Shown here one piece after another: positions 6,885 to 26,030 of a stretch of DNA of 41,880 bases (the stretch's first letter is position 1; each line of letters opens with the position of its first letter). A program made the translations under genes and the position numbers. The DNA comes from Deltaproteobacteria bacterium (GTDB lineage: Bacteria > Desulfobacterota > Syntrophobacteria > BM002): the NCBI GenBank assembly GCA_020353155.1, contig CP070689.1, positions 3,025,034 through 3,066,913 on the forward strand, written 5' to 3'. Below the pieces are notes generated by a model. The model was not told where the DNA came from and did not search any database. It saw only the letters and a list, made by a program, of their open reading frames with translations.

Positions 6885-8921
6885 TCAGGCCGCCTTTTCC
6901 ACCTTCACGGCACACACTTTGTACTCAGGTATCTTCGCCGTGGGGTCGTGGGCCGGATTGGTGAGCACATTGGCACAGGTTTCAGCAAAGTGGAAAGGCA
7001 TGAACACCACACCCGGGTCCACTCTGTCGGTAAGAGTCACCTTTGCCACAATCTCACCCCGCCTTGAGGCGACCTTCACCTTCTCGCCCTGCCTAACCCC
7101 AAGGCGGCTGCCATCCTCAGGGTGCATCTCCAAACTGCCCTCCGGCATCTCTGCATGGAGTGAAGGAGAAACCCTGGACATGGTACCCGTATGATAATGG
7201 ACATGTACCCTGCCGGTACTTAGCCAGAAAGGATACTCATCGTCAACTACCTCGGCAGGGGGCTGATACTCAATAGCGTGGAAAAGTCCCAAACCCCGAG
7301 CAAATTTATCTTTGTGCAAAAACTTGGTCCCCGGATGATCCTTGTCTGGACAGGGCCAGGCAAGTCCATCACCATCTAACCTCTCATAGGTAATACCACC
7401 ATAAGATGGGGTAAGAGTTGAAATCTCCTTCATAATATCTTCGGCACTTTCATAGTTCATCTCATAGCCGAAACGATTGGACAATTCCTGGATAATCTCC
7501 CAGTCAGCTTTCGCCTCCCCTACGGGCTCAATGGCCTTTCTAAGCAACTGCACCCTTCTTTCTGTGTTAGTAAAGGTGCCGTCTTTCTCAGCAAAGGAAG
7601 TTCCAGGTAGCACCACATGGGCAAGTTCTGCCGTGGGAGTAAGAAAGATATCCTGGACCACCAGAAGCTCAGCCTTCTTCAAGGCCTTTTCCACATGACC
7701 CACATCAGGATCACTCACCATGGGATTCTCACCCACTGCATAGAGGGCTTTCACTTTGCCCTCAGAAAGACCAGAGAGCATAAAAGGAATGGTAAGCCCG
7801 ATCTGATCTGAGAGCTTGGCCCCCCAGGCTTTCTCAAACTTGGTCTGGTTATCGATTACATTTACTGCCTGGTAACCAGAATAGACATTGGGAAGTCCTC
7901 CCATGTCACAGGCACCCTGGACATTGTTCTGGCCCCTCAAGGGGTTCACCCCAGTGGACTCTTTGCCCATATTACCTGTAAGCATGGCCAGATTAGCCAA
8001 AGACTTTACGTTGTCCACCCCGGTGGTGTGCTGGGTAATGCCCATGCAATAGACAATTGAGGCTGCCTTAGCCTTGGCATAATACTCAGCAATCTTGACA
8101 ATATCATCTGCAGCAACCCCGGTAATCTCAGATACCTTCTCAGGTGGATAGTTATCAATTACTTTACTGAACTCCTCAAAACCCTCGCAACGCTCTTCCA
8201 CAAAAGCTTTATCATGCCAGTTGTTCTTTATAATCGCGTGCATGATCCCGTTTAAAAGGGCCACATCAGTTCCCAGGCGCTGGCGCACATAAATATCAGC
8301 CTTCAGTGCCAGCTGAATCTTTCTGGGATCTGCCACAATGACTTTGGCCCCCTTGGCCATGGCCCGAAAGATCCGGGTGGCTACCAGAGGATGGGATGAG
8401 GTGGTGTTAGAGCCGGTGACAAATATGCAGTCGGCATCCTCTATCTCAGCAATGGAGTTGGTCATGGCTCCACTGCCAAAGGCGGCGGCAAGACCTACCA
8501 CCGTAGAGGAGTGTCAGAGCCGAGCGCAGTGGTCCACATTGTTGGTTCCCACTGCGGCACGGGCAAATTTCATAATCAGGTAATTTTCCTCGTTGGTGAC
8601 CTTGGCCGAGGCCAGAAAACCAATGCTATCGCTGCCGTGAGCCTCTTTGATCTCTTTCAGTTTGGAGGCAGTGTAGTCCAGAGCTTCATCCCAGCTGGCC
8701 TCAGTAAGCGTGCCGTTTTTGCGGATCAGCGGCTTGGTAATCCTCTCCGGGTGCTGGACAAACTCGTGAATGTTCCAGCCCTTGACACACAGCTTGCCCT
8801 CATTTATGGGGTTGGTCTTGGAAGGTAGGGTGCCTATGAGACGGCCGTCCAATACCTCTAAGTAAAGACCGCAGCCACAGCCACAATAGGCGCAGGTAGT
8901 AAGTACGGTTTTGTAGTCCAT
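6885..8921 (-). CDS. fdhA: Formate dehydrogenase catalytic subunit, selenocysteine-containing
   Basis: A 678-residue molybdenum/tungsten bis-MGD formate dehydrogenase of the E. coli FdhF type, oxidising formate to CO2 or the reverse. The N-terminus binds one [4Fe-4S] cluster (CAYCGCGCG, then KLCVKG). The frame contains TGA at 8514-8516, residue 136, in the context DHCARL-Sec-HSSTVVG, which is the active-site selenocysteine of this family. It is therefore one gene, not two. A SECIS hairpin follows at the expected distance. The molybdopterin-binding regions (TGSNTTSSHP, GENPMVSDPD, LSTGRVHVHYHTGTM) are intact. AAGGAG lies just before the ATG. There is no extra N-terminal NADH-type Fe-S domain, so electrons must leave through separate partners, likely the FdhB-like protein or the small ferredoxin. 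Confidence 0.97.
8484..8502 (-). promoter_or_regulatory. Bacterial SECIS hairpin of the formate dehydrogenase mRNA
   Basis: In the mRNA, 11 nt after the UGA, seven pairs (GGUGGUA with UGCCGCC, two of them G-U) enclose the loop GGUCU. The spacing and the GGUCU loop match the E. coli fdhF SECIS that binds SelB. This shows that the host has selenocysteine insertion machinery. Confidence 0.9.
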
Positions 8922-19427: not shown

Positions 19428-21116
19428 ATGAACCGCTTCCAGATGAGTTTGAGAACCAAGGTGGTCTTGAGCCTCACCTTTCTGATGGCTTCAGCCATGC
19501 TACTAATCGGCACGGTCATGCTTAAAGTGAGTCAGCGAGATCTGGTCCGGGCCAAGGTAGAACAGGGATTGGTGCTGAAGACGGCGGTGGAGCGGTTACT
19601 TGTTATTGCGAGTGACGGCAAGTTGGACCTGGTCAAGAGCAGTTCTCGACTGGTGGGTCTGCAACCGGGCAACCTGGAGAATATGGCCCCGTGGAAGATC
19701 ACCGTTGCCGACCAGGATGGCGTAGTGGTCTATGGCGCAGATAGAAAAGAACAGACTGGAAAACAGCCCTCGGCAGGGCTGAAGAGGGTCATACAGCTTG
19801 AAATGGAATCCGTTTCGTTCTTGCCAACCGCTAAATCTTTTTGGCTCCAGATGCCTGAAAAAGTGGTACTCTCCGCCCCCCTCTTCCATGAGCAGAAAAT
19901 CATAGGAGCACTTCAACTGGAGGCAGAATTGGCCGATGTGCGCCAGAGTCTGGCAGGTTCACAAAAACTCCTGTTGTTTTACATAGTGCTGGATATTCTG
20001 GTACTTGTAACTTTCGGTGTCTATATCTTTTCCAAACTGGTGGTAAAGCCGGTGGAAGCTTTGGTGCAGACCGCTGAGAGCTTCCAGGAGGGAGACATTA
20101 TTCCTGACGTGAGTGCAGGAGAGCAAAACGAGTTGGGCAAGCTTTCGCAGGCGCTCAACGCCATGCTGCAGAGGCTGGCGGAAAACAAAGAAGAGCTTCG
20201 CCAGCATATTACCTCTCTGGAGCAGGCAAACCTGGAACTGCAAAGGGCTCAGCAGGAAGTAATATTCAGTGAGAAACTTGCCTCTGTTGGGCGGTTGGCC
20301 GCAGGTATTGCCCACGAGATCGGAAACCCCATCGGTATTGTGCTAGGCTACTTGGAATTGTTGCAGAGGAAAGACACTGAGGAAGGTGAGCGCGCGGAAC
20401 TTCTTGGCCGCATGGGTACCGAGATTCAGCGTGTTAACCAGACCATCAGACAGCTGCTGGATTTTTCCCGGCCGAGCTCCAGCGAGAGAGAGGCAATCTC
20501 TGTCCATCCCCTAATTCGGGAGACTCTGGACGTTCTGGACCATCAGCTCAGGCAAAAAGACATAGAGGTTGTCCTTGAACTCGAGGCCCAAGCAGATATA
20601 GTATTCGCCAATGCTGACCAACTCAAGCAAGTATTTCTCAATCTTATGGTGAACGCCGCGGATGCCATGGAGGGTACTAATGACAGAACACAGGGTGGTG
20701 AACTCCATGTGAGAACCCGAGCTTTTTCCGATGGGAGTCTGCTTGGCGGAAAATCTCTTGCTCGGCCCCTCCGGCGAAGCACGGATCCTGCCACGGCCGA
20801 TTACAGCCACCTTCGCAGAGGTCCTGGCACCGAAGGGGAAAGCTGGCTCCAAATCCAGTTCGCCGATACTGGGGTCGGCATTCCCAAAGAAAACCAAAAA
20901 AGAGTCTTTGATCCTTTTTATACAACCAAGGAGGTTGGCAAGGGCACCGGCTTGGGTCTTTCCGTAAGCATCCAAATAATTGAGACTTTAGGGGGACGAA
21001 TGGATCTGTCCAGCAAGCCCGGGGAAGAGACCAGGGTCACTATCCAGTTGCCCATTTATGATGAGCAGGCAGCGGACAGCGAGCAGGAAAAGACTGACAC
21101 GGAGAGACGGAGATAA
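19428..21116 (+). CDS. Membrane histidine kinase, PilS/NtrB-like, with HAMP domain
   Basis: A 562-residue sensor kinase. Helix 1 is about residues 10-31, a periplasmic sensor region of ~150 residues follows, helix 2 is about 181-203, then HAMP (to ~255) and a short coiled coil. The dimerisation/phosphoacceptor box is AAGIAHEIGNPIG with His296. The ATPase has NLMVNAADAME (N box), DTGVGIP (G1), DPFYTTK and GTGLGLSV (G2). It is paired with the sigma-54 regulator just downstream. The nearby sigma-54 pilin promoters make pilus control plausible, though this is inference. Its last residues (TDTERRR) are encoded by one arm of a period-8 repeat. Confidence 0.93.
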   Translation: MNRFQMSLRTKVVLSLTFLMASAMLLIGTVMLKVSQRDLVRAKVEQGLVLKTAVERLLVIASDGKLDLVKSSSRLVGLQPGNLENMAPWKITVADQDGVVVYGADRKEQTGKQPSAGLKRVIQLEMESVSFLPTAKSFWLQMPEKVVLSAPLFHEQKIIGALQLEAELADVRQSLAGSQKLLLFYIVLDILVLVTFGVYIFSKLVVKPVEALVQTAESFQEGDIIPDVSAGEQNELGKLSQALNAMLQRLAENKEELRQHITSLEQANLELQRAQQEVIFSEKLASVGRLAAGIAHEIGNPIGIVLGYLELLQRKDTEEGERAELLGRMGTEIQRVNQTIRQLLDFSRPSSSEREAISVHPLIRETLDVLDHQLRQKDIEVVLELEAQADIVFANADQLKQVFLNLMVNAADAMEGTNDRTQGGELHVRTRAFSDGSLLGGKSLARPLRRSTDPATADYSHLRRGPGTEGESWLQIQFADTGVGIPKENQKRVFDPFYTTKEVGKGTGLGLSVSIQIIETLGGRMDLSSKPGEETRVTIQLPIYDEQAADSEQEKTDTERRR

Positions 21117-21166: not shown

Positions 21167-21233
21167 ATCCACTCCGGTTTACGGGCGGATCCGACTAAGT
21201 AGGGTGGTTGAAGAAGTACTAAGGTGTACTGAA

Positions 21234-22598
21234 ATGGAAGAGAAACGAATTCTCGTCATAGACGATGAAAAAAACATGCGCCACATGCTGGCCGTGCTTT
21301 TGGAGAAAGAGGGCTATCAGGTGGACAGTGCTGCCAACGGCAAGGAGGGCCTCGATCTATCCCTGGAAAGTTTTTATGACATAATCCTCTGCGATCTGAA
21401 AATGCCGGTCATGGATGGCATGGCATACCTGCAAAGCTTCCAAGATAGCGGGCAGGAATCTACCGTAATTGTTATGTCCGCCTATGGAACTCTGGATACG
21501 GCAATCGAGGCCATGAAACTGGGGGCTTATGATTATGTGTCCAAACCCTTCAAAGCGGACGAAATTCTTCTCACCTTGAGAAAGGCTGAGGAACGAGAGC
21601 GACTACGGAAAGAAAACCGGCTGCTACAGCAGTCAATGCGTGAGCGCTACAGCTTCGCCCAAATGATTGGCCCCAGCCCAGCCATGCAGGAAATCTTTGC
21701 TACCATTGAAAAGGTGGCAGATTATAAGACCTCGGTTCTAATCACCGGAGAGAGTGGCACCGGCAAAGAGCTCATTGCCCGGGCTATCCATTACAACAGC
21801 TCGCGGGCAGACAAGCCTCTGGTTACGGTTAACTGCGGTGCAATTCCCGAGACTCTGCTGGAAAGTGAGCTTTTCGGCCACAAGAAGGGCGCCTTCACTG
21901 ATGCAATCAGAGACAAGAAGGGTCTGTTTCAAGAAGCTCATGGGGGTTCTATTTTGCTGGATGAAATCGGAGAGTTGCCCCGCCAACTACAAGTGAAGCT
22001 TCTCAGGGCATTGCAGGAAGAGGAAATCAAGCGTGTGGGGGATAACCTATCCATTAAGATAGATATCCGGGTTATGGCGGCCACCACCAAAGACCTGGCA
22101 GAGGAGGTCAAGACTGGCCGCTTTCGAGATGATCTCTATTATCGTATTAATGTACTCCACATAGGGGTACCACCGCTCCGTGAACGCCAAGAGGACATCC
22201 TTCTGCTTATTCAGCATTTCATTGATAAAACGAGCAAACGGCTGAACTCGGAGGTGACCGGAGTTAGTCCTGCTGCCGGGAGAGCCCTCCAAGCCTATTC
22301 GTGGCCAGGGAACGTGAGGGAGTTGGAAAACATCATCGAACGGGCCATGGTTATGGCTAACGGTTCTACCATTGGGCGAGAAGATCTGCCCTCTTACTTG
22401 CAGCCCCAGGAAGAGACGGTGGAGTACTTCACTGATGATGAAAACCTCTCCATAAAAGAGGCCAGTCGGAAGCTGGAAAAAATACTCATTCGGAGGGCCT
22501 TGGAAAAGACTGAAGGGAACCGAACTCAAGCCGCAAAAATACTGGAAATCAGCCACCCGGCCCTACTATATAAGATGAAGGATTATGGGTTAGACTGA
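21234..22598 (+). CDS. Sigma-54-dependent response regulator, PilR/NtrC family
   Basis: A 454-residue activator. The receiver domain has D10-D11, phosphoacceptor D54 (IILCDLKMP) and K in VSKPFK. The AAA+ domain has Walker A GESGTGKE, the sigma-54 contact loop GAFTDA, and Walker B SILLDEIGEL. A Fis-type helix-turn-helix ends the protein (NRTQAAKILEISHPALLYKMK). The ATG at 21234 is chosen for the AAGGTG before it; a GTG ten codons upstream lacks a well-spaced site. With the kinase it forms a two-component system. Candidate targets within the window are the two identical sigma-54 promoters at 32393 and 40580. Confidence 0.95.
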   Translation: MEEKRILVIDDEKNMRHMLAVLLEKEGYQVDSAANGKEGLDLSLESFYDIILCDLKMPVMDGMAYLQSFQDSGQESTVIVMSAYGTLDTAIEAMKLGAYDYVSKPFKADEILLTLRKAEERERLRKENRLLQQSMRERYSFAQMIGPSPAMQEIFATIEKVADYKTSVLITGESGTGKELIARAIHYNSSRADKPLVTVNCGAIPETLLESELFGHKKGAFTDAIRDKKGLFQEAHGGSILLDEIGELPRQLQVKLLRALQEEEIKRVGDNLSIKIDIRVMAATTKDLAEEVKTGRFRDDLYYRINVLHIGVPPLRERQEDILLLIQHFIDKTSKRLNSEVTGVSPAAGRALQAYSWPGNVRELENIIERAMVMANGSTIGREDLPSYLQPQEETVEYFTDDENLSIKEASRKLEKILIRRALEKTEGNRTQAAKILEISHPALLYKMKDYGLD

Positions 22599-22786: not shown

Positions 22787-23713
22787 ATGTTCCGTAAAGT
22801 AATGACATTCTTGTTGGTAATGGGTGTTTTCGCTTGCAGTCAACAGGAAGAATATAGGGGCGAGGGGCCTACCTACCGGACTGTGGGCGACGGAGCCACC
22901 AGAATTAGATCTGTCTGGATTGAACCTGCAAGTCCAACCAGCACTACCAATCTTACGGCCGAGGTGCTCGTCCGAGGCGAACCCACATCTCGGCTGAACT
23001 ACCAGTGGTTGAGAAACAACGTCCCCATACCAGGAGCCATTCGTCCAATGCTTCCCAGTGACCAGTTTGGCAAGGGAGATTTTGTCGCGGTGCAAGTCAG
23101 GGTTGCTCAGGCAGGAGCTGACAGAGACCCAGTGACCTCCGATCCGGTTCTCATCGGCAACACGCCCCCTGTAGTAGACTGGGTATCCATCGGCCCTGCA
23201 CCGCCCAGTTCCACCAGCAGTCTCGAGGCGGTGGCCAAAGGCAGTGACATTGATAATGACGAGCTGAGTTTTTCTTATCGATGGACAGTCAGTGGCGAGC
23301 CTGTGGTGGGACAGGAAGGACCAACCCTGGCCAGCAACTACTTTAAACGGGGAGATCAGGTAGAAGTAGCAGCCGTGCCTTTTGACGGCACTGACTGGGG
23401 CCAACCCGGCAGCTCGATCAAGGTGACTATTTCCAACAGTCCCCCAATTATTAAATCCACTCCTCCGGGAGAGTTAAAAGAAGGGACCACTTACCGCTAC
23501 CAGGTTCAGGCAGAAGATGCTGACGGAGACACCCTGACTTTCTCCCTCCAGGGTGAGCCACCAAAAGGAATGGTGATCGATTCACAGACCGGAGTAGTGG
23601 AGTGGAAGGTGGTAATCCCTGAAAATCCTGTCACCTATGTGTACGAAGTGGTGGTGGAGGACCCCGAGGGAGCGAAGAGTATCCAGACGGTTACTTTGAA
23701 GAATGCTTCATGA
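22787..23713 (+). CDS. Lipoprotein with Ig/cadherin-like repeats (paralogue 1)
   Basis: A 308-residue predicted lipoprotein: a short signal with a lipobox ending VFAC (Cys about residue 17), then beta-rich domains. The last ~90 residues are a putative Ig/dystroglycan-type cadherin-like domain (DADGDTLTFSLQG, PPKGMVIDSQTGVVEWK). The middle repeats the pattern seen in the 25065 gene (QWLRNNVPIPGAI versus QWIRNGSPVPGAI, then KGDFVAVQV versus KGDFISVQV), so the two are paralogues. Function is unknown; an envelope or surface-binding role is likely. GAGG precedes the ATG. It stands directly upstream of the candidate selenoprotein gene. Confidence 0.85.
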   Translation: MFRKVMTFLLVMGVFACSQQEEYRGEGPTYRTVGDGATRIRSVWIEPASPTSTTNLTAEVLVRGEPTSRLNYQWLRNNVPIPGAIRPMLPSDQFGKGDFVAVQVRVAQAGADRDPVTSDPVLIGNTPPVVDWVSIGPAPPSSTSSLEAVAKGSDIDNDELSFSYRWTVSGEPVVGQEGPTLASNYFKRGDQVEVAAVPFDGTDWGQPGSSIKVTISNSPPIIKSTPPGELKEGTTYRYQVQAEDADGDTLTFSLQGEPPKGMVIDSQTGVVEWKVVIPENPVTYVYEVVVEDPEGAKSIQTVTLKNAS

Positions 23714-23787
23714 TATAGATCGCATAGGGCAAAGTGCATAGCGTCAAGGAGAAGACTTTTCTAATTTCACAGAGAGAGAAGGAGATA

Positions 23788-24831
23788 ATGAATTTATTTG
23801 ATAGGCTGAAATTGCCGATAATGGTGCTTTTTGGTCTTATCTTGGCAATATATCCAAGCGTTTCTCAGGCAGTTGCCCCCGAAGCTAAGCCGGTTGTGGA
23901 AATACCATCCCCCCGTCACGACGCGGGCACCCACTGGGAAGGAGAGATAGTAACCCATGGTTTCGAGGTGAAGAACACTGGCAGCAGTGAGCTCAGAATT
24001 CTTAATGTGAAACCCGGGTGAGGCTGCTCGGTGGTCCGCTACGATCGGGCCATCCCACCAGGTGGTGTGGGGCAGGTCACTTTACAGGTTAATACCAGTG
24101 GTTTTCAGGGCAGGATCACTAAAACGGCACAATTGACCACAAACGATCCTGTACAGCGAAGCCCGAAGATCTACCTATCCATTAACGTCCGCAGCCACAT
24201 AATTGTCGAACCGGGCCCGAAAATAATGCTGAGAGGCATTGTTGGGGAGGACATTCGACGTGTGGTCCATATTCGTCCTGCTGATGAGCAACCTCTGGAG
24301 ATCACCAAAGTCCAGACCAATCTGGAATCAATTATCGATTACAAACTAAATCGCAAGGATGACAGCAACCAGTACAAACTGGAGGTGGTCAGCAAGGTTT
24401 CAGACCAGAAGACAGCCAGTGGATTTCTGACCTTGCACACCAATCATCCCAAGAAAAAAATCTTGAAATTATCTGTCCACCTCCGGGTAAAGCCGGAAAT
24501 TCAGGTCTGGCCCAATAATATAGGCTTCTATGAGAACCCCAAGTCTGGGGCCAAAGGGAGGACAAACAGGCGAAACCTCATCGTAATGAACAATCGGGGC
24601 AAGAGCTTTAAGATAAAAGAACTTAGCTATAACAGGGACTATTTTCAGGTGCGTCCTTTGGCAAAGAATGACGACCCAGCCAGCAAATATCACTTTGAAG
24701 TAACAGCATTGCTAGATAAGCTGCCTGCCGGTAATATGGAGTTCCGGGACACCCTGATCATTAAAACAGACAATACTCGCCATGGGGAGCTGCAGGTACC
24801 CATGTGGATCAAATTGAGGGCGGCTAAATGA
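23788..24831 (+). CDS. Exported DUF1573 protein with in-frame TGA: candidate selenoprotein
   Basis: A 347-residue protein if TGA at 24019-24021 is read as selenocysteine (residue 78). GAAGGAGATA is directly before the ATG at 23788. A signal peptide (to about SQA) is followed by a DUF1573 domain: VKNTGSSELRILNVKPG, Sec, GCSVVRYD, then IPPGGVGQVTLQVNT. In DUF1573 this position is the first Cys of a conserved CGC(T/S) motif, so the only in-frame stop falls precisely on a conserved Cys and leaves Sec-Gly-Cys. The frame continues without other lesions for 270 codons, with a second beta-rich part. A SECIS-like hairpin follows the TGA. The alternative is a nonsense-mutated pseudogene, which the exact position argues against. 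Function is unknown; a periplasmic redox role is possible. Confidence 0.8.
24030..24055 (+). promoter_or_regulatory. Candidate SECIS hairpin of the DUF1573 gene
   Basis: Eight nt after the TGA, GGUGGUCCG (24030-24038) pairs with CGGGCCAUCC (24046-24055) to give nine pairs with one bulged U and a 7-nt loop CUACGAU. The apical loop starts 17 nt after the TGA, in the accepted bacterial range. A G near the loop start is present only if the closing G-C pair opens, so the match to the consensus is looser than in fdhA. Confidence 0.55.
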
Positions 24832-24874
24832 TTTGATAGATAGAATTATTGCGCCTACTTTTTCGATTCTTGAC

Positions 24875-24949
24875 GTAGGGGCGGGATTTACTCCCGCCCG
24901 GAAAAGTGTTGAAATCGGCTTAGCGGGTGGGCATGAAGCCCACCCCTAC
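24875..24949. repeat. Palindromic three-stem element
   Basis: Outer arms GTAGGGG (24875-24881) and CCCCTAC (24943-24949) enclose two perfect 8-bp hairpins: GGGCGGGA, loop TTTAC, TCCCGCCC (24879-24899), and GGGTGGGC, loop ATGAA, GCCCACCC (24925-24945). It looks like a REP-type mobile palindrome placed after the DUF1573 gene. No T-run follows, so it is not a standard terminator. Confidence 0.75.
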
Positions 24950-25010
24950 CTATAATCATGTTTTGGACGAGTAGACGCATTTATTTTTGACGCCCCGGAT
25001 AGTATGTATT

Positions 25011-25064: not shown

Positions 25065-26030
25065 ATGAAATCGTCAAATAGATTCTACCGATTTGCTATC
25101 GTGTTGATGGGGTTGGCAATCCTCGGTTGCAGCAACCAGCCGGACCAGTCCAAGGGGCAAGCCACAAGTGAGTCAGAAGGTTTTGCCACGGGCAAGATCC
25201 ACTCTGTAAGCATACTCCCGGAGAATCCCACGCCGGAAACGGCTTTAGAAGTAGACTTGTTCATGGGCGGAGACAAACCCGAACGCTTGAGTTTTCAGTG
25301 GATCAGGAACGGTAGCCCCGTCCCCGGTGCCATAGACCGGTTGTTTCCTCGCAAGAGTTTCAAGAAAGGTGATTTTATTTCAGTTCAGGTCCAGGCAAAG
25401 TGGTCGGGAGGGAAAACCCAAACGGCGGAATCGGAAACGGTAGTCATAGGCAACTCAGCTCCCTACGTGCAATCTGTCTCCTTTGAACCTGCGGCTGCTG
25501 GAACCAACGACGATCTCAAGGCAGTTGTAAGAGGCAGCGACCAGGATGCGGATAGGGTGGATTTCTTCTATGCCTGGTCGGTAAATGGCAGTCCCGTGGG
25601 TGACCAGGACGGCCCGGTACTGCCGAGCACCTATTACCAGAGAGATGACGAGGTCGAGGTGGTGGTAACCCCCACGGACGGTACGGACGTTGGCAAGACA
25701 GTACGTGGGAACATTAAGATAGCGAACACTGCACCGGAGATCGTATCCACGCCCCCGGAAACAATTATGACCCAAGGTATCTATACCTATGCGGTTCAGG
25801 CCCAAGATGCTGACGGTGATTCCATTCGCTTTTCTCTCGAGGGTAATACCCCCGAGGGTATGACTATTGATCCCAAGACAGGCCTGGTAAAGTGGCAGGT
25901 GAAGCTGCCGGATGAAGAGATCTCCTACGAGTTTGAAGTGTTGGCAGAGGACTCGGAGGGCGAAACCTACAGTCAGACGGTCACACTGAGATTGGTTCCG
26001 CAACAGGTAGAGGTGAGTCCGACTCAATAA
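25065..26030 (+). CDS. Lipoprotein with Ig/cadherin-like repeats (paralogue 2)
   Basis: A 321-residue predicted lipoprotein. The start at 25065 is chosen because it opens the signal peptide (MKSSNRFYRF...), whose lipobox ends AILGC about residue 22; an earlier ATG would add a tail coded by a REP element. Three or so beta-rich segments follow: a QWIRNGSPVPGAI module, a second with SWSVNG-like text (AWSVNGSPVGDQDGPVL), and a C-terminal cadherin-like domain (DADGDSIRFSLEGNTPEGM). It matches the 22787 product throughout, so the pair arose by duplication and flanks the DUF1573 gene. Function unknown. Confidence 0.87.
   Translation: MKSSNRFYRFAIVLMGLAILGCSNQPDQSKGQATSESEGFATGKIHSVSILPENPTPETALEVDLFMGGDKPERLSFQWIRNGSPVPGAIDRLFPRKSFKKGDFISVQVQAKWSGGKTQTAESETVVIGNSAPYVQSVSFEPAAAGTNDDLKAVVRGSDQDADRVDFFYAWSVNGSPVGDQDGPVLPSTYYQRDDEVEVVVTPTDGTDVGKTVRGNIKIANTAPEIVSTPPETIMTQGIYTYAVQAQDADGDSIRFSLEGNTPEGMTIDPKTGLVKWQVKLPDEEISYEFEVLAEDSEGETYSQTVTLRLVPQQVEVSPTQ

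Follow-up and report, generated by a model that had tools for sequence, protein, structure and literature searches.

A probable selenoprotein of the DUF1573 family with three predicted immunoglobulin-like domains

The window, which is the whole stretch of 41,880 nucleotides analysed, contains a gene that is with high probability a real selenoprotein gene of the DUF1573 'UGC' family (OS_HP2, 2007), in a long form with three domains. Its internal UGA, codon 78, is almost certainly read as selenocysteine (Sec), a reading that rests on comparative sequence data. The coordinates of the gene, its parts and its neighbours are collected in Table 1.

Table 1. Features of the DUF1573 gene and its surroundings, in positions of the window
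Feature	Position	Strand	Remarks
Sensor histidine kinase	19428..21116	+	neighbour conserved within the genus
Sigma-54 response regulator	21204..22598	+	neighbour conserved within the genus
Ig (He_PIG) putative lipoprotein	22787..23713	+	upstream, 74 bp before the DUF1573 gene; VFAC lipobox by eye
Ribosome-binding site AGGAG of the DUF1573 gene	23780..23784	+	from the sequence
Gene for the putative Sec-containing, exported DUF1573 protein	23788..24831	+	347 aa, Sec at residue 78, terminal stop TGA
Putative N-terminal signal peptide	23788..23871	+	about residues 1-28, ...PSVSQA, without lipobox Cys; by eye; disordered in the model
Ig-like domain 1 (DUF1573)	23890..24192	+	Sec78 lies in the loop that joins strands 69-76 and 80-85; PF07610 and model
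Sec78 UGA codon	24019..24021	+	Sec-Gly-Cys motif runs on to 24027; TGA in relatives, Cys in other homologues
Candidate bacterial SECIS hairpin	24030..24054	+	apical loop at 24038-24046 with G as its first base, 16 nt from the UGA
Ig-like domain 2	24193..24495	+	boundaries approximate, from the strand list
Ig-like domain 3	24496..24822	+	boundaries approximate, from the strand list
Paralogous Ig putative lipoprotein	25065..26030	+	downstream, likely start ATG 25065; LAILGC lipobox by eye

The Internal UGA and the Decoding Capacity of the Host

The gene forms a single frame of 348 codons from the ATG at 23788. Re-reading of this frame bore out the preliminary description, according to which the TGA at 24019-24021 is the sole in-frame stop before codon 348. 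The TGA stands at the first Cys position of the CGC motif of DUF1573, in the context ...NVKPG-U-GCSVVRYDRAIPPGG..., and since homologues elsewhere have Cys there, the statement that it replaces this residue holds as well. When the gene is read through the TGA, the Pfam domain DUF1573 (PF07610) is matched at residues 40-121 with 63.2 bits versus a cut-off of 26.1; together with purifying selection over 269 codons past the TGA, this agrees with the earlier claim that the remaining domain and the downstream codons are intact. As the gene's own terminal stop is also TGA, this codon is not simply reassigned in it. Rfam and tRNA scans of the whole window gave no matches. On the 3' side of the gene, at 24870-24955, lie two strong inverted repeats (GGGGCGGGATTTACTCCCGCCC, GGGTGGGCATGAAGCCCACCC), which may be a dispersed repeat or a terminator.

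The host genome, a single contig of 3.21 Mb from what is probably a member of the Thermodesulfobacteriota, carries selA (617 bits), selB (390 bits), selD (375 bits) and tRNA-Sec (75 bits) along with the DUF1573 gene, each scoring over its cut-off. The selD gene (G000:C1:192680-193603) itself has one in-frame TGA. On the minus strand of the window the gene of a formate dehydrogenase has an in-frame TGA at 8514-8516, followed by a hairpin of its own which fits the SECIS rules with -12.3 kcal/mol. Both the Sec formate dehydrogenase noted before and the proposed ability of the host to decode UGA as Sec, for which a search for the sel genes had been recommended, are in line with these findings. Whether the presence of tRNA-Sec predicts the TGA form was also considered; this criterion was set aside as having little power, because 344 of 395 genomes have this tRNA.

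Conservation and Possible Replacement of the Sec Codon

A DUF1573 homologue is present in 49 of 60 relatives, with exactly one TGA in most matches. Homologous loci from the same genus, family and class, all of them in separate assemblies, were read base by base. In the alignment of homologues that had been proposed as a check, 27 of these 29 loci (28 of 30 with the window's own) have TGA at the codon that corresponds to codon 78, which excludes chance or a sequencing error, and distant homologues (Krumholzibacteriia, Acidobacteriota, Planctomycetota, Desulfarculus and others) have Cys at the site, the pattern used for this distant scan being made of Cys codons so that only Cys homologues and no Sec forms could be returned. 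The TGA loci share the context P-G-U-G-C and close variants of it, and the two exceptions among the 30 have Cys (L037, CGC) and Thr (L040). The Thr form (TGTGC, genome G033) is nested among Sec forms. Across the phylum, 161 of 395 sampled genomes contain a match to the family model NF041425, and 42 of the 52 matches over its curated cut-off, counted among the matches listed, have one TGA. The Sec form of DUF1573 is widespread, and a large part of the phylum sample has retained Sec at a single codon.

On a tree of 71 sequences calculated with the site masked, which is unrooted and has many open forks, the state of the site changes at least six times. The nesting of Cys and Thr tips in Sec groups suggests that Sec was replaced by Cys or Thr in some lineages. 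Tandem DUF1573 paralogues occur in loci L067 and L062, the pair in L067 consisting of one Sec and one Cys form side by side. The homologue in L023 (genome G003) has a second TGA near its 3' end and an altered C-terminus, probably due to a frameshift or an assembly fault.

In comparisons with genus relatives pN after the TGA is about 0.08-0.23 versus a pS of 0.27-0.59, a sign that this region is translated under constraint. Over the 12 codons following the TGA, synonymous change affects only 0-3 of 10 sites versus 27-59% elsewhere, and this depletion holds even where synonymous change elsewhere exceeds 0.5. Selection acting on the RNA itself would be expected to leave such a depletion.

The Candidate SECIS Hairpin

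Downstream of the TGA a hairpin of 9 bp can be formed, in which, in a numbering that starts at the U of the UGA, positions 12-20 pair with 28-36; re-derivation of its geometry gave the same result as reported before (8 nt separating the stem, and 17 nt the loop, from the TGA). Published rules for bacterial SECIS elements ask for a loop of 3-9 nt, a stem of 4-16 bp, a G as the first or second base of the loop, a distance of 16-37 nt from UGA to loop and a minimum free energy of at most -7.5 kcal/mol (PMC13188914, Fig. 2A). With the top pair 20-28 opened, the bacterial SECIS check that had been proposed found agreement with all four rules: 8 bp carry a 9-nt loop (GCUACGAUC) that starts with G, at 16 nt from the UGA and with -11.8 kcal/mol; 1.6% of the control positions attain this value. 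When all 9 bp are paired, the loop (CUACGAU) has no G at either of its first two places. The folding energy of the single hairpin is by itself not exceptional (z -0.91) and, not being significant, was dropped as evidence.

Covariation was scored in 27 sequences. Cells of the stem in which both sides had changed numbered 14 versus 4.4 in shuffles (a value reached in 0 of 500 shuffles), and the covariation score was 0.234 versus 0.127, with a maximum of 0.164 when the partner was slid; as the shuffles ignore relatedness, these numbers are not probabilities. Pair 15-33, which joins two third codon positions, is found as GC, CG, UA and AU. Among the Sec loci 46% comply with the strict rules, compared with 4% among the Cys homologues and 9% for positions drawn at random from the same genes, so that over half of the relatives need a looser SECIS definition, a need likewise noted for some other selenoprotein genes (PMC13188914). 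The conserved site, the covariation of the hairpin and the synonymous suppression together illustrate how strong a case for Sec can be made from comparative data alone.

Alternative Readings of the Internal UGA

According to the preferred reading, the UGA of codon 78 would be decoded as Sec by SelB and tRNA-Sec at the hairpin directly downstream, and the UGA of codon 348 would terminate translation of the same gene. An in-frame stop, and the broken 3' end seen in the relative G003, might also be taken to indicate a pseudogene or a sequencing error, the TGA being a nonsense mutation or a miscalled TGC or TGT. This is very improbable, as separate assemblies have the same TGA in 27 of 29 loci, and as purifying selection acts on the 269 codons past it with the remaining domain intact. 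Programmed termination at the TGA with a restart at the GTG at 24031, giving two proteins without any Sec, is only slightly less remote. An open reading frame of 266 amino acids does start at this GTG; however, a break at this point would divide the DUF1573 Ig domain in the middle of a sheet, the GTG lies within the SECIS stem, homologues read uninterrupted through CGC, and synonymous suppression and covariation are found downstream of the TGA. The least probable explanation, to which hardly any weight can be given, is that this lineage has reassigned TGA to one of the ordinary amino acids. A TGA does stand in frame, as this would require, but TGA is also the terminal stop of the DUF1573 gene here and in several relatives, homologues have Cys at the replaced residue, and the full Sec machinery is present. 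Ordinary gene callers cut such genes in two, and the Sec form is therefore easily missed.

Protein Architecture

The product looks exported, as its N-terminus resembles a signal peptide when judged by eye; the preliminary description had come to the same view. An AlphaFold2 model based on an alignment of 20 sequences (mean pLDDT 87.5, pTM 0.71) has a strand pattern of three successive beta-sandwich domains. With this model Foldseek retrieved central-pair/HYDIN-type proteins at the top, followed by titin, cadherins, the Porphyromonas gingivalis protein 2qsv and other Ig-fold chains, and no enzyme fold was among the matches listed. The whole-length TM-scores of 0.2-0.3 mean that these matches support the type of domain and not the domain arrangement. 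A sequence search of the PDB gave only 2qsv, with an E value of 0.067. In the predicted structure the protein is an exported chain with three Ig-like domains (HYDIN/ASH type) in tandem, and DUF1573, with the Sec-Gly-Cys motif in a loop between strands, is the first of them. Sec would sit here in an Ig-like and not in a thioredoxin-like fold.

Gene Neighbourhood and Possible Function

The upstream Ig lipoprotein gene and the DUF1573 gene are probably on the same transcript. The two putative Ig-domain lipoproteins flanking the gene (22787-23713 and 25065-26030) are paralogous. Within the genus the neighbours are a histidine kinase, a sigma-54 regulator and He_PIG putative lipoproteins, with type IV pilus-like genes adjoining; no redox gene adjoins the DUF1573 gene of the window. 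A different arrangement is found at 11 loci from two other families of the class, which are sister families. There a divergent polysaccharide deacetylase gene precedes the Sec-DUF1573 gene on the same strand, the gap to the DUF1573 open frame ranging from an overlap to about 500 bp, and farther upstream, where in reach, follow a CtpA-type S41 protease, an M23 peptidase and FtsX/FtsE. In genome G411 a short Sec form comes after genes for ArsR, a Cu/Zn-efflux-like protein, thioredoxin, a CcdA-like protein and ArsM, and is followed by a LysR gene of the selenium-metabolism type, a match which scored under its cut-off. Such conserved neighbours suggest functions which are open to testing.

The only other DUF1573 gene of the host genome is a Cys form (match at G000:C1 1012706-1013002, 81.8 bits, 242 aa). 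Like the window protein this paralogue has a DUF1573 domain and looks secreted, and it has CGC (TSCGC) at the site; it differs in having Cys for Sec, in being shorter and in lying beside TsoB/TsoC and a rhodanese. The Tso operon (about 1010300-1013900 of G000:C1; L179 8300-11863) consists of TsoB, TsoC and then the Cys-form paralogue and the rhodanese. TsoB has two in-frame TGA codons (FYUDGLTU), and TsoC reads NEPNGKPU. A general link between the Sec form and the Tso operon was considered and rejected, as by eye no other genome among the matches listed for the phylum sample has both close together.

For the mechanism it is conceivable that Sec78 and Cys80 form a reversible selenenylsulfide/selenol-thiol pair in the periplasm, which would be re-reduced by a relay of the DsbD type. 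Such a thiol redox role of the Sec-Gly-Cys motif has about an even chance of being correct. Consistent with it are the position of the host's Cys paralogue beside TsoB/TsoC and rhodanese and the thioredoxin and CcdA-like genes of G411; against it count the fold, which is not thioredoxin-like, the lack of an adjoining redox gene and the Tso linkage, which is not general. The runner-up, considerably less probable and concerning the mechanism only, leaves the protein a selenoprotein and has Sec-Gly-Cys bind a soft metal or metalloid such as Cu(I), As(III) or Hg instead of taking part in thiol redox chemistry. CXC pairs bind soft metals, and the short Sec form of G411 in its arsenic- and metal-related surroundings would fit; this context is, however, absent in the window's own relatives, where the neighbours are Ig lipoproteins and two-component or envelope genes.

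Beyond the redox role, the long form may be a selenium-dependent redox part of envelope remodelling, a doubtful proposal based on the 11 loci at which Sec-DUF1573 comes after an FtsE-FtsX-M23-CtpA-polysaccharide deacetylase cluster. If true, peptidoglycan processing would be linked to the periplasmic redox state through a Sec-Gly-Cys motif carried by an Ig scaffold.

Comparison with Known Selenoproteins

The suggestion of a new selenoprotein family in the preliminary description does not stand, because DUF1573-UGC is already contained in PMC9312934, PMC13188914, PMC2398784 (as OS_HP2) and NCBIfam NF041425. In their consulted sections two reviews table a DUF1573 domain-containing protein (pfam07610, motif UGC) as a prokaryotic selenoprotein (PMC9312934, PMC13188914), one of them crediting the 2007 study of the Olavius algarvensis symbiont by Zhang and Gladyshev (PMC9312934), and the corresponding part of a survey from 2008 gives 2 Sec and 354 Cys sequences for OS_HP2, pfam07610 (PMC2398784). 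In the sections of the DUF1573/OS_HP2 literature consulted no function for these selenoproteins was found.

With its DUF1573 domain, a TGA at the first Cys of CGC for which there are Cys homologues, and a host equipped with the Sec machinery, the window protein very probably belongs to this DUF1573-UGC family. To the narrower model NF041425 (OS_HP2 family (seleno)protein) its residues 40-134 match at positions 2-97 of 98 with an E value of 2e-28. The score of 98.6 bits with C written for U is 1.4 below the curated cut-off of 100 (86.1 bits in a six-frame search), and a genus relative, G007, is likewise under it; owing to this borderline score the protein is filed under the broader family only.

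What is added here is the putatively exported form with three HYDIN-like Ig domains, the frequency of TGA in the phylum sample, the envelope-gene cluster upstream in related families and the Cys paralogue beside the Tso selenoprotein operon. OS_HP2 of the Olavius algarvensis symbiont and GOS (PMC9312934, PMC13188914, PMC2398784) shares with the window protein the DUF1573 domain, a Sec in place of the first Cys of CGC and the existence of Cys homologues; these papers, in the sections consulted, tabulate the family without architecture or function, whereas the window protein is predicted to be its form with three Ig domains and 347 amino acids.
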